Positions 11,278 through 26,340 of a DNA stretch of 33,529 bases are shown piece by piece. The notes below the pieces were generated by a model. That model searched no databases, was not told where the DNA came from, and saw nothing but the letters and a program-made list of their open reading frames with translations. The stretch comes from an uncultured bacterium (GTDB lineage: Bacteria > Cyanobacteriota > Vampirovibrionia > Gastranaerophilales > Gastranaerophilaceae). The stretch covers positions 1 to 33,529 of the forward strand of contig CASEDF010000019.1 in assembly GCA_949286705.1 (NCBI GenBank), in the 5' to 3' direction. How positions within the stretch are numbered: the first letter of the stretch is position 1; every line of letters starts with the position of its first letter. The position numbers were made by a program, and so were the translations under genes.

Positions 11278-11338
11278 AAGGAGAGCTAAAATGGAAGATA
11301 TGACTAGTTTAAATCACGGGGGGGGGCGACTCTCCTAG
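11278..11338 (+). promoter_or_regulatory. poly-G translational switch, pilin locus 1 (9 G, off frame)
   Basis: SD AAGGAGAG (11278-11285), ATG 11291 and nine codons lead to a run of nine G (11318-11326). In the sequenced state the frame reads MEDMTSLNHGGGRLS and stops at TAG 11336-11338. One more G continues GGGATLLDRQDKGF... without a stop into the pilin ending at 12309 (339 residues). Two more G, or one fewer, stops at the TAG at 11340. CTCTCCT (11330-11336) is the exact complement of AGGAGAG in the SD, so the mRNA can form a 7-bp hairpin hiding the SD with the ATG and G tract in the loop. The switch reading is inference; the frames are seen. Confidence 0.8.
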
Positions 11339-14019: not shown

Positions 14020-14074
14020 AAGGAGAGTGATTGATATGACTAGTTTCTATAACGGGGGGGGGCGACTCTCCTAG
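14020..14074 (+). promoter_or_regulatory. poly-G translational switch, pilin locus 2 (9 G, off frame)
   Basis: SD AAGGAGAG (14020-14027), ATG 14036 and six codons lead to nine G (14054-14062). As sequenced the frame reads MTSFYNGGGRLS and stops at TAG 14072-14074. One more G opens the long leader frame ending at 14619. ACTCTCCT (14065-14072) complements AGGAGAGT (14021-14028) over 8 bp, the longest SD-hiding hairpin of the four loci. The first bases after the tract are nearly identical to locus 1. Confidence 0.75.
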
Positions 14075-14619
14075 ATAGACAGGACAAGGGTTTTGGCGGT
14101 ATGTTTTGGGAAAAGTTACTAAGATACTGTGGCACTAAGGCAGTAAGAAGTAACAGAAAAGCAGGTCGGCATTACTATGCCGACAGAAAAATTAACAGTC
14201 GGATTAGTAAATCCGACCTACAGAATGTCATCCTGAAGTGCCTGAGGCAGGACACCATACTTGACATTGGTCACCCTATAAACGTCATCCCGCATTTATT
14301 GCGGGATCTCAATAAAAAAAGATCCCGGAACGAGTCCGGGATGACGGAAGTATCATGTCATTGCGAGGAGCGAAGCGACGTAGCAATCGCAACACCGTTT
14401 AAATTGAATGAGATTACGACGTCGTGTGTTATGCACACTCCTCGTAATGGCAAAAATGCAAGTCTGCATTACCAGACCGACAACAAAATTGACAAAGGAA
14501 CAAATACAAATTATAATTCTAATATGATGAATTATAAATCAGAGATCCTGCGGAAAAACCGGACATTTTTCACAAAATCGAAGATTTTGGAAAAAGTAGA
14601 GCTCATGATGAGATTCTGA
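14062..14619 (+). other. open leader frame of pilin locus 2, packed with repeats
   Basis: With a tenth G this frame runs 185 codons from the tract to a TGA at 14617-14619. It begins GATLLDRQDKGFGG like loci 1 and 4 and passes through several palindromic repeats without a stop. It does not reach the pilin in frame: the pilin frame is open only from 14538 and overlaps this one by about 80 bases, one frame away. A single-base insertion in that overlap would join them. I read it as a leader broken by a second frameshift, not as an independent gene; the ATG at 14101 inside it has no SD. Confidence 0.5.
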
Positions 14620-14739
14620 AACAAGTTCAGAATGACAAAAATTTTGGTTCGCTTTGCAAAGTTCAGGATGACAAAAAACCTCACGCCATTCAATCTAAAA
14701 AATTCTTAGTGCCTTACTGCCTTAGTAACTTAGTATCTT
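14113..14739 (+). repeat. inverted repeat arms flanking the leader of pilin 2
   Basis: The left arm 14113-14147 and right arm 14705-14739 match as inverted copies at 29 of 35 positions. The right arm is identical to the right arm of locus 1 (11544-11578), and the identity continues to the AAFTL codons. The 557 bases between the arms are mostly palindromic repeats. Confidence 0.7.
14165..14393 (+). repeat. cluster of palindromic repeats
   Basis: Consecutive hairpin-forming units lie inside the leader: GTCGGCAT-TACT-ATGCCGAC (14165-14184), GTCGGATT-AGTA-AATCCGAC (14198-14217), a GTCATCCTGA...CAGGAC unit (about 14228-14253), ATCCCGC-ATTTATT-GCGGGAT (14287-14307), ATCCCGGA-ACGAG-TCCGGGAT (14322-14342) and a TTGCGAGGAGCGAAGCGAC unit (14359-14393). 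These are dispersed-repeat types; related copies lie in loci 3 and 4 and at 30650 and 32714. Confidence 0.8.
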
Positions 14740-15458
14740 TTAAGAAGGCAGCGTTTACTCTGGCAGAAGTTCTGATAACCCTCGGCATAATCGGGATTGT
14801 TGCAGCGATGACAATACCGACGCTGGTTTCCGATATCACTAATAAAGGTTTTGTAGAAAAACTTAAAAAGAATTATGTGTTAATTCAAAATGTTACAAAA
14901 ATGGTTATAGCGGAAAACGGTGACCCTGCTTATTGGCAATGGTCTGAGTATAATAGCCCGAATTTTGATGCGAATGATAATATTGCAGAAATGTACAAAA
15001 AGCATTTAAAAGTTACGGATACTTGTCCGCCGTCTTCTGATTCGAGGTTGTCAGCAAAATGTGTATTGGATAAGGATGATTATTCATATCTCAACGGTAG
15101 TCATGATAATGTGGGAGATTATGGTGGGTCCGGATTTAAATTATTTTATTGTAACTATATATTTATGCTTTCTGATGGAACTACACTCGGACTGCGTTTT
15201 AATTCAGGACGCTGCGGGAAATTTTGGGGTACTCCCGATTTGACCTTTACTATTGACGTAAATGGTAAAGCCGGACCTAATACTATAGGTCGTGATATAT
15301 TTTATGTTTATATGAATAAGTCTGATCACGGACAGGTAAAACCATATACCAATGTGATTTTTCCGGGAACAATTGATAATACCAACACCTGTGATATTAA
15401 CAGTACAGGTCAAAGTTGTGCTTATAGAGTCTTGACCGAAGGTAAAATGAATTATTAA
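14709..15458 (+). CDS. type IV pilin-like protein 2, start unresolved (frameshifted leader)
   Basis: The class III signal SFKKAAFTLAEVLITLGIIG is intact, followed by a helix (IVAAMTIPTLV) and a globular domain with three or more Cys pairs, LSDGTTLGLRF, and the shared motif DVNGKAGPNTIGRDIF. The only start in frame ahead of the signal is GTG 14709, without an SD. Upstream the frame is open to 14538 but has no ATG. The SD/ATG/nine-G leader at 14036 is in a different frame and would still end at 14619 with a tenth G. So as sequenced this gene needs two corrections and may be silent or a donor cassette. It ends at a strong terminator shared with the convergent phosphohexomutase. Confidence 0.75.
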   Translation: MPYCLSNLVSFKKAAFTLAEVLITLGIIGIVAAMTIPTLVSDITNKGFVEKLKKNYVLIQNVTKMVIAENGDPAYWQWSEYNSPNFDANDNIAEMYKKHLKVTDTCPPSSDSRLSAKCVLDKDDYSYLNGSHDNVGDYGGSGFKLFYCNYIFMLSDGTTLGLRFNSGRCGKFWGTPDLTFTIDVNGKAGPNTIGRDIFYVYMNKSDHGQVKPYTNVIFPGTIDNTNTCDINSTGQSCAYRVLTEGKMNY

Positions 15459-18518: not shown

Positions 18519-19211
18519 ATGAAAGAAAGAAATTACAACAGACGCTATGCAAAAGAGTACAACTGGTTCCGCTCGTTGTTCTATCTGTCTTTTTTGAATA
18601 TAGTTGTTGATAATTTTTTAAGAATTTTTTATGATTATAAAGTCTACGGCCGTGAAAATCTGCCTAAAGATAACGGCAAATATATTTATGCCGCAAACCA
18701 TGTTTCAAATTTTGATCCTCCGATAGTTTCTTTTGCGACAAGAAAACTTATTGCATTTATGGCAAAAGAGGAGCTTTTTGAACCTACTGATAAGCGCCAA
18801 TGGCTTGTAAAACGTCTGGGAGCGTTTGCGGTCAATAGAACCAAACCCGAAATCGCAACATTTAAAACGGTTCGTGATATCTTCACAACAAAATGGTCAC
18901 TGGGGGTTTTTCCGCAGGGCGGGACAAATCCTTACGGAAAACTCGAAGGAATTAAAAAAGGTTTTGCGGTTATTGCTAAAAATGCAAAAGCCGATATTGT
19001 CCCTGTTGCAATCGCTGAATTTACAGGCTATCCGAAATTAAAACCCTTTACAAGACGTAAATTTAGAATTTATATTGGAAAACCTATATCATATAAATTA
19101 TCAGAAGATGAAATAATTTATGAATGGTGCAAATATATATCGGAACATGCTGACTATGAAAATTGTGCCAAACCGCCTGAAAGCTTGGAAAAAGATAAAG
19201 TATTGAAATAA
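18519..19211 (+). CDS. PlsC-like acyltransferase, diverged copy 2
   Basis: This paralogue of the preceding PlsC has 230 residues. The N-terminal pattern NYNRRYAKEYNWFRSLFYL mirrors copy 1. Motif I is NHVSNFDP with catalytic His and Asp kept, and motif II GAFAVNRT is kept. Motif III reads FPQGGTN where copy 1 has FPQGTR: a Gly insertion/shift removes the Arg expected to bind the glycerol phosphate. Motif IV is VPVAIAEF. The ATG has SD TAGGAG. The changed motif III suggests a different acceptor, or reduced activity. The gene is co-transcribed with copy 1. Its stop is just upstream of the SD of pilin locus 3, so pilin 3 may be read from the same transcript; no separate promoter is obvious. Confidence 0.88.
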   Translation: MKERNYNRRYAKEYNWFRSLFYLSFLNIVVDNFLRIFYDYKVYGRENLPKDNGKYIYAANHVSNFDPPIVSFATRKLIAFMAKEELFEPTDKRQWLVKRLGAFAVNRTKPEIATFKTVRDIFTTKWSLGVFPQGGTNPYGKLEGIKKGFAVIAKNAKADIVPVAIAEFTGYPKLKPFTRRKFRIYIGKPISYKLSEDEIIYEWCKYISEHADYENCAKPPESLEKDKVLK

Positions 19212-19272
19212 AAGGAGAAAAGCTGCCATGAAAGAATTTTGCACAAGAAACGGGGGGGGGCGTCTCCTCTAA
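19212..19272 (+). promoter_or_regulatory. poly-G translational switch, pilin locus 3 (9 G, off frame)
   Basis: SD AAGGAG (19212-19217), ATG 19228 and eight codons lead to nine G (19252-19260). As sequenced the frame reads MKEFCTRNGGGRLL and stops at TAA 19270-19272. The two-G-longer frame stops at a TAG six codons later. One more G gives GGGASPLTSNSNGFGD... and runs to 20423 (398 residues). TCTCCT (19263-19268) complements AGGAGA (19213-19218). The pairing is kept although the flanking bases differ from loci 1 and 2. Confidence 0.8.
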
Positions 19273-20423
19273 CTAGTAATAGCAATGGTTTTGGAGATTA
19301 TGGAACCCCTCTACCTTTGGGAGAGGGTGGCTCGAAGTGCCGGGTGAGGGTTTGTCATAGCGAGGTGCCAAATGCACGAAATCATGTAATACAATATTCG
19401 TGTAATGTACTACCAACACCTAATGTGTTGTCCTGCCTCAGACAGTGTCATTGCGAGGGAGCGAAGCGACCGTCGCAATCGCAAAGTTGTCTAATAAAAA
19501 AAGAGATCCTGAACCGAGTTCAGGATGACAGAAATAATGGGATTACTACGTCGGACATACGTCCTCCTCGTAATGACTTGGATAGTTGTACCCAAATTGT
19601 GAAAAATGATATCGTGCCTTTGGCACCTCGTAATGACAGTAAAGAACTTAACGACTTTAAAAAGAAAGCTGCCTTCACTTTGGCCGAAGTGTTAATAACC
19701 CTTGGAATAATCGGAGTAGTTGCGGCACTGACAATACCGACATTGATAAACAATTATCAAAAAAAGGTATTAAAAACGCAATTTATGAAAAAATATGCAG
19801 AGATATCGCAGTCAGTATTATTGGCCAAAAGTGAAACAAACGGAAATTTTAAGTCGTATTGTATACAATATGATGGAAATAGCTATTATAATACAGAAGA
19901 GTGCAAGGCAATGTTTGACAAATATTTTAAAGTGGTTGACCGCTGTAAATACAAAGGTGATGTATTAACTTATAACAAAAAACTTGCGGCTCATGTTGAT
20001 ATTGGTGCTTTAGCAAAACCTACCAAACTTCTTTCTGACGGTAGTTGCTATGATATAAAAATAAATTCTAGGCAGCTTGGCTTTGTATTTGATATGAACG
20101 GACCGGATAAGGGACCAAATGCGTTAGGACATGATATATTTTCCTTCCATGTGGATGAAAATGATTACTTGCAGCCGGTTAAACAGACTGCAACATATAC
20201 AGAGGATGAAATAATTGCAGACATGGAAGATTGTGAAGAAAAATATGGTGGTACACCGGGAAATTCTTTAGCGGCATGTTTGTCTGCACTCAGACAAAAA
20301 GGATACCCGTGCAATAAGGCCTCAACGCAGCAGGGGAACGGACTGGGTTGTTCATGGTTTGCCTTGCATGATGTTTGTCCTGATGATGAGACAAAAGGTT
20401 ATTGGGATTGTTTGCCTAAATAA
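19239..20423 (+). CDS. type IV pilin-like protein 3 with long repeat-derived leader
   Basis: The pilin part begins at FKKKAAFTLAEVLITLGIIG, about 145 codons into this frame; it continues VVAALTIPTLINNYQKK and has a Cys-rich globular domain with LLSDGSCYDIKI and DMNGPDKGPNALGHDIF. Upstream the frame is open back through the G tract, with no ATG between the tract and the signal; only a TTG at 19239, lacking an SD, is nominally available. The likely real start is ATG 19228, reachable with a tenth G (398 residues). The leader translates palindromic repeats (for example CHCEGAKRPSQS), which is unusual for a prepilin, whose leader is normally 5-30 residues. Cleavage before Phe would discard the leader. 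It ends at a strong terminator. Confidence 0.82.
   Translation: MHKKRGGASPLTSNSNGFGDYGTPLPLGEGGSKCRVRVCHSEVPNARNHVIQYSCNVLPTPNVLSCLRQCHCEGAKRPSQSQSCLIKKEILNRVQDDRNNGITTSDIRPPRNDLDSCTQIVKNDIVPLAPRNDSKELNDFKKKAAFTLAEVLITLGIIGVVAALTIPTLINNYQKKVLKTQFMKKYAEISQSVLLAKSETNGNFKSYCIQYDGNSYYNTEECKAMFDKYFKVVDRCKYKGDVLTYNKKLAAHVDIGALAKPTKLLSDGSCYDIKINSRQLGFVFDMNGPDKGPNALGHDIFSFHVDENDYLQPVKQTATYTEDEIIADMEDCEEKYGGTPGNSLAACLSALRQKGYPCNKASTQQGNGLGCSWFALHDVCPDDETKGYWDCLPK
19308..19577 (+). repeat. palindromic and dispersed repeats inside the pilin 3 leader
   Basis: The units seen are a CTCTACC...GAGAGGGTG...GGTGAGGG block (about 19310-19349), a TTGCGAGGGAGCGAAGCGAC unit (19449-19484) and GAGATCCTGAACC...TTCAGGATGAC (19503-19529), with CCTCGTAATGAC repeated at about 19566-19577 and near 19627. 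Related units occur in loci 2 and 4 and in the 30.6-31.1 kb repeat region. All are read through without a stop in the pilin frame. Confidence 0.75.
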
Positions 20424-20425
20424 TG

Positions 20426-20455
20426 AAGAAGTCCTCTTTTTGAAGAGGACTTCTT
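20426..20455 (+). terminator. Rho-independent terminator after pilin 3
   Basis: A perfect 13-bp stem (20426-20438 with 20443-20455) with a 4-base TTTG loop is followed by a T-rich run. It closes the plsC-plsC-pilin 3 unit and may also serve the convergent gene ending at 20492. Confidence 0.88.
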
Positions 20456-20491
20456 TTTCTATTTAAAGAAAGGAATTCGGTTTATGGTTAA

Positions 20492-26230: not shown

Positions 26231-26340
26231 AAGGAGGAAAATATGGGAAAAGATAAGTTTAGAAACCTCGGGGGGGGGCGACTCCTCAAGGTAGGCAGGA
26301 CAAGGGCTTCGGCGGTATATTTGGAAAAAAGATACTAAGA
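26231..26340 (+). promoter_or_regulatory. poly-G translational switch, pilin locus 4 (9 G, off frame)
   Basis: SD AAGGAGG (26231-26237), ATG 26243 and nine codons lead to nine G (26270-26278). As sequenced the frame reads MGKDKFRNLGGGRLLKVGRT... and stops at a TAA at 26336-26338, later than at the other loci. The frame two G longer stops at once (TAG near 26294). One more G gives GGGATPQGRQDKGFGG... and runs to 27306 (354 residues). CTCCT (26282-26286) complements AGGAG of the SD. No independent promoter is clear, so it may ride on the isochorismatase transcript. Confidence 0.8.

Follow-up and report, generated by a model that had tools for sequence, protein, structure and literature searches.

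The DNA analysed here, referred to as the window, is a stretch of 33,529 nucleotides that forms contig 19 of a 41-contig genome of 1.85 Mb. On its forward strand, to which all coordinates refer, an acyltransferase-like gene ends in a TAA (19209-19211) that is immediately followed by a Shine-Dalgarno (SD) sequence, AAGGAGAA (19212-19219), and, after 16 nt, by an ATG (19228-19230). This ATG opens the precursor of a prepilin, pilin 3, in a frame that is -1 relative to the pilin. It reads MKEFCTRN, crosses a tract of nine G (G9; 19252-19260) as GGG GGG GGG, continues as CGT CTC CTC and closes at a TAA in the fourth codon past the tract (19270-19272). Within this short stretch lies TCTCCT (19263-19268), the complement of the SD core AGGAGA (19213-19218).

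The pilin frame is open back to the stop at 19209-19211, with no ATG in between. Past the tract it comprises a long, stop-free pre-leader (19261-19673), also lacking an ATG and partly made up of interspersed repeats, followed by the prepilin N-terminal cleavage/methylation motif KKKAA/FTLAEVLITLGIIG (19659-19733) and the mature pilin domain through to its stop (19674-20423). A hairpin with a T run (20427-20461), found by eye, is a probable intrinsic terminator. Inserting one G into the tract yields a single open frame, MKEFCTRNGGGASPLTSN...FKKKAAFTLAEVLITLGIIG; lengths of 7, 10 or 13 are ON, while 8, 9 and 11 are OFF. Pilin 3 carries a feature of phase-variable contingency loci, a simple sequence repeat inside a reading frame whose length decides the frame. 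Palindromic repeats are interspersed within the pilin pre-leaders of the window, at 19420-19540 and 14200-14680 (CATTGCGAGG..GCGAAGCGACG and GATCCTGAAC..GTTCAGGATGAC).

Matches of pilin 3 to PF07963 (22.9 bits, cut-off 21.2) and TIGR02532 (18.3 bits, cut-off 16.3) mark it as a type IV-like prepilin, and its leader is predicted to be cleaved by a prepilin peptidase. All models for specific equivalogs (GspG, ComGC, PilA and the like) scored far below their cut-offs. Usual prepilin leaders are far shorter than those of the related tract loci, whose lengths span 19-212 residues with a median of about 92 and in which interspersed repeats make up part of the sequence. Because the leader is normally cut off, the pre-leader sequence is presumably free except for having to stay open.

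Tract families in the genome and its relatives

Three further G9 tracts occur in the window: those of pilin 1 (11318-11326, ATG 11291) and pilin 4 (26270-26278, ATG 26243), both ON at 7, 10 or 13, and that of pilin 2 (14054-14062, ATG 14036). Each of the four sits behind a good start and ahead of a prepilin, and three are exactly one G short. Given this placement, and eight 8-G matches in the window against 0.17 expected, the tracts are not chance occurrences. Pilin 2 (14054-14741) differs in that G10 opens its leader only to about 14617, with the pilin in the third frame, so that the frame has to change twice; this gene may be decaying or may contain a second switch.

The genome holds 75 tracts of at least 7 G, most of them upstream of prepilins, and 70 prepilins matching PF07963, of which about 50-55 are tract-controlled. 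The genome probably encodes more than 70 prepilins, since many contigs (C5, C8, C9, C15, C18 and C21 of G000) end within prepilin N-terminal sequence. An odd block of G13, G7 and C12 (L072, G000:C16:19586-19630) forms a G/C palindrome with no pilin linked to it. Scans of viral contigs found no relevant tract loci.

The tracts fall into several families. Family A, to which most of the counts below refer, has the signature CG9CGACTCTCCT, and family B has GGAGGTTAA-ATG-G10-CAGTAGCTTAACCTCC. Family C consists of C9 in coding orientation, the reverse complement of the family-A core. C-tract prepilins, mostly C9 on the coding strand (L039, L054, L056, L061, L069, L074 and L075), carry the reverse complement of the core CG9CGACT and are mostly one base short of ON. 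The family-A motif was found repeatedly in MAGs labelled Candidatus Gastranaerophilales, which places the host of the window in this gut group, and is essentially confined to its genus; in sister species that lack the motif, prepilins are preceded by other families of G and C tracts. One pilin family stands behind both G-type and C-type tracts. In the sister species G001 (loci L290, L306 and L334-L351), a G9 ORF with a TAG directly past the tract precedes prepilins most of which possess an SD and an ATG of their own, some 70 nt ahead of FTLAE.

A complement of the SD just after the tract recurs in families A and B, where it was computed, and in family D, where it was read from the sequence. 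In family B it reaches up to 9 bp (GGAGGTTAA / TTAACCTCC). The duplex between SD and post-tract sequence averages -9.3 kcal/mol, compared with -5.5 for letter-shuffled sequence and -3.7 for a control stretch. The complement could weakly mask the SD or make an inverted repeat around the tract. Covariation between SD and anti-SD was considered as a mechanism, but the complementarity surpassed that of locus-permuted pairs by a modest margin (z -2.4) and is kept here as an observation.

Starts and reading frames at the pilin loci

The first-pass annotation had proposed that pilin 3 lacks an ordinary start of its own and depends on the ATG at 19228, and the start sites bear this out. The ATG has a good SD (duplex energy -8.0 kcal/mol), the TTG at 19239 has none (+0.4 kcal/mol), and direct reading of the sequence found no in-frame ATG from 19239 as far as the pilin signature. 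Its further claim, that expression requires a changed tract length or a frameshift, needs narrowing: initiation at 19228 with a frame change at the tract is supported by the sequence as the sole well-formed path to pilin 3, but only lengths of 7, 10 or 13, not any changed length, restore the frame. In-frame GTG or TTG codons lie at 19317, 19344, 19365, 19425, 19428, 19578, 19599, 19614 and 19620, and most have no SD-like sequence; the exceptions are the GTGs at 19344 (-6.0 kcal/mol) and 19365 (-6.1 kcal/mol), whose SD-like sequences are weak (background 5th percentile -5.8).

Comparison across loci, whose counts mix related and non-independent members, indicates that the pilin frame matters well upstream of the pilin. 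In 108 family-A loci from several genomes, the stretch from tract to pilin contains 29 stops in 9,531 codons of the pilin frame versus 948 and 799 in the other two, and it is completely open in the pilin frame at 102 loci and at none in either other frame. Over 133 comparable loci this depletion begins at the tract itself, with 5 stops in 2,576 pilin-frame codons over the first 60 nt versus about 270 in each other frame. Distances on both sides of the tract are constrained as well: ATG and tract are separated by a multiple of three at 127 of the 133 loci, and the tract-to-pilin distance is 2 modulo 3 at 125. No in-frame ATG occurs between tract and FTLAE at 56 of these 133 loci, and at 128 there is none preceded by an SD-like sequence. 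By the measure of stop codons, selection acts on the pilin frame right up to the tract, and the same pattern signals that this frame is translated through it.

These relations bear directly on the idea that an internal non-AUG start, for example the GTG at 19344 or 19365, makes the pilin and that the tract ORF encodes a mere upstream peptide. The weak SD-like sequences at these two codons are in its favour, as are the many G001 pilins that possess an SD and an ATG of their own, placed downstream of a distinct tract ORF. However, such a start would not call for a pilin frame that is almost free of stops up to the tract across 130 loci, nor for frame-locked distances on both sides, and an in-frame ATG with an SD-like sequence is present in just 5 of the 133 loci. 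An internal start is thus very unlikely.

Tract length and phase

Each species is represented here by one genome, and each consensus assembly gives one tract length per locus. Family A has nine G in 112 of its 138 tracts. An ON length could be defined for 126 loci, of which 104 stand at -1, 18 are ON and 4 stand at +1; the remaining 12 include L011 and L012, two loci whose assignment to the family by regular expression is doubtful. The ON share is below one third (binomial p 1.6e-6, indicative only, as for all p values here). Family C resembles family A, with 12 of 13 loci at -1. In this genome, plain reading puts 8 of the 56 family A, B and C loci counted in the ON state, with tracts of 7 or 10 bases. 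Family B behaves differently, its tracts in G000 and G005 having lengths of 7, 8, 10, 11 and 12 in mixed phases, albeit in small numbers. Free slippage would usually be expected, though not by strict definition, to give several lengths and about one third ON; family A does not fit this spectrum, whereas family B does, in its small numbers. Selection for OFF could be the reason for this difference.

The offset of one base below ON is also preserved where a substitution has altered the pure run (G8A in L045 and L326, ctG10 in L250), and in a family of G014 that stands at G10 and is ON at 11. Loss of mismatch repair was rejected as the cause, as a near full-length MutS1 match is present; MutS1 was found in 16 of 16 genomes. 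A mutational equilibrium at nine bases was likewise considered as a full explanation; it loses weight in view of the 7-12 range of family B and the G10 of the G014 family, though numbers are small.

Both ON and OFF alleles of pilin 3 occur in nature, in different species. Its orthologues in two sister species, L417 (G011) and L087/L418 (G005), carry G10, share 72-73% amino acid identity with it and form an intact ORF of about 407 aa from the ATG; the G005 copy, for which synteny was checked, has the same upstream gene. A loss of one G from a true G10 in sequencing or assembly could mimic such a difference, as recorded homopolymer lengths can err and discrepancies in G tracts have been reported (PMC9187656). 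Yet lengths from 7 to 13 were assembled within this same genome, G9 at -1 turns up again in independently assembled genomes from other species, and the G8A variants hold the same offset, all of which makes an artefact highly improbable.

Syntenic loci that share one flank in different species carry tracts of 10, 9, 9, 9, 11 and G8A. At some sites shared between species (L014 vs L101, L051 vs L250, L010 vs L091) the flank is near-identical as far as the tract and is then followed by another leader or pilin; L014 and L101, for instance, are 98% identical through +43 from the tract start and then unlike until the pilin. On this sequence comparison, syntenic loci exchange leaders and pilins past a shared flank and tract in a cassette-like manner. 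Since leaders and pilins are swapped behind a shared flank, and one pilin family stands behind G-type and C-type tracts alike, the repertoire also recombines. The same features could suggest that the tract is primarily a DNA site for recombination or gene conversion between pilin loci, its effect on frame being secondary: similarity often ends about 15-50 nt past the tract start, and family C is the reverse complement of the family-A core CG9CGACT. However, a mere DNA site would have no need of the frame relations conserved on both sides of the tract, and the breaks in similarity vary in position, with similarity often resuming at the pilin. This reading is exceedingly improbable.

More weight attaches to programmed recoding, in which G9 and C9 would be functional as they stand and the frame would be shifted either by some ribosomes, slipping by -1 on G GGG GGG, or by some RNA polymerases, adding one G. 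The ratio of full-length pilin to a peptide of 14-15 residues would then be low and fixed. At pilin 3, an in-frame slippery heptamer of the type X XXY YYZ is present with a nearby 0-frame stop (GGG GGG GGG CGT CTC CTC TAA). Consistent with recoding are the exact -1 offset of families A and C across many species and its persistence in altered runs, the approximate match of 9 bp to the length of the RNA:DNA hybrid, and the position of the ATG-frame stop, which falls exactly four codons past the tract at 92 of the 110 family-A loci with G9. In addition, family B tracts of these genomes do not stay at nine bases (Fisher p 6e-7). Set against this, ON alleles (G10 and G7) occur naturally at homologous loci, including G10 at this very locus in the two sister species; family D of G001 is also G9 but needs the opposite shift; and runs of G and of C would both have to work. 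Family D and the natural alleles speak against a pure recoding system, and programmed recoding is rather unlikely.

The explanation that probably holds is that pilin 3 is a contingency gene in its OFF phase and part of an unusually large, mostly-OFF prepilin repertoire. Ribosomes would begin at the ATG at 19228, read MKEFCTRN, cross G9 and end four codons on, so that no pilin is made. Slipped-strand mispairing during replication to 10 G (or 7 or 13) would join this start to the leader and the type IV-like prepilin. As the prepilin peptidase would remove the whole pre-leader, any in-frame sequence could be tolerated there. With about 55 loci in homologous G-tract and C-tract families, mostly OFF, each cell would show a small, stochastically chosen subset of pilins. 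Tract lengths would accordingly be expected to change within a population, at some rate of switching, and the repertoire would serve surface variation.

The G10 orthologues that are ON in two sister species argue for phase variation, as do the mixed phases of family B in G000 and G005, with lengths from 7 to 12. So do the differing tract lengths at syntenic loci of different species, the ON loci of this genome, the open pilin frame between tract and pilin, and the use of such a device by Bifidobacterium breve. Points against free slippage are the low ON share of family A and its OFF loci, nearly all of which are at -1 (104 vs 4 at +1), a sharper pattern than predicted. G9 may slip slowly, given the MutS1 in all 16 genomes. 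Selection for a repertoire that is mostly OFF but within one expansion of ON would explain the low share of ON loci, although taken alone it would not account for the missing G8 and G11, while programmed slippage at G9 would explain the strict offset of one base from ON. Phase variation and recoding can coexist. A two-layered arrangement is offered tentatively and is on balance unlikely: programmed slippage at G9 or C9 would supply small amounts of every pilin, selection would on that account hold the repertoire at ON minus one, and an occasional G10 or G7 allele would fix one pilin at high expression.

Parallels and significance

Homopolymeric G tracts near the start of a pilus gene, with out-of-frame OFF alleles, are familiar from Neisseria pilC and other poly-G contingency genes. 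Unlike the loci described here, pilC is present in one or two copies per genome and is not the pilin itself, and to our knowledge no SD complement follows the tract in these genes. Known bacterial slippage sites are mostly runs of A or T. Programmed -1 frameshifting and transcriptional slippage, as in dnaX and IS elements (reviewed in PMC5009743), share with the pilin loci a conserved -1 relation at a homopolymer and a nearby stop in the original frame, but natural in-frame alleles exist at the pilin loci.

Among published systems, the closest is that of the sortase-dependent pili of Bifidobacterium breve UCC2003, which are switched by G tracts at bbr_0113 and bbr_1889. There the alleles on record (G11 and G10) are OFF, the second ORF has no active start and the mouse gut enriches for ON lengths (PMC9187656). 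Both cases concern a gut commensal with a G tract in the first pilus gene that is turned ON by an altered tract length. They differ in that B. breve has sortase pili, two loci and tracts of 10-12, whereas the present loci number about 55 per genome, encode type IV-like prepilins, mostly have G9 or C9 at one base below ON and carry the tract in a pre-leader that is expected to be cleaved. In Campylobacter jejuni, strain NCTC11168 has 29 phase-variable polyG/polyC loci (PMC4965091), and dozens of G or C tracts of at least 7 per genome likewise lie inside reading frames; they belong to other gene classes, unlike the single prepilin family with one dominant length and offset found here. The kind of device is thus already known, while its scale and the organism are apparently unreported, and our literature search found no paper on surface variation in Gastranaerophilales.

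Gastranaerophilales are common gut residents, largely uncultured and non-photosynthetic relatives of cyanobacteria. For annotation, the loci carry a warning, as most such genes would be called truncated, wrongly started or pseudogenes. Because ON and OFF lengths are one base apart, metagenomic reads could serve to test, with no need for a culture, whether pili switch in the gut. If the interpretation is true, some 50 tract-controlled members of one family in 1.85 Mb would be among the largest contingency repertoires of a single protein class. In all, this genome seems to contain a large set of pili that is off by default and can be switched on by a slip of one base.
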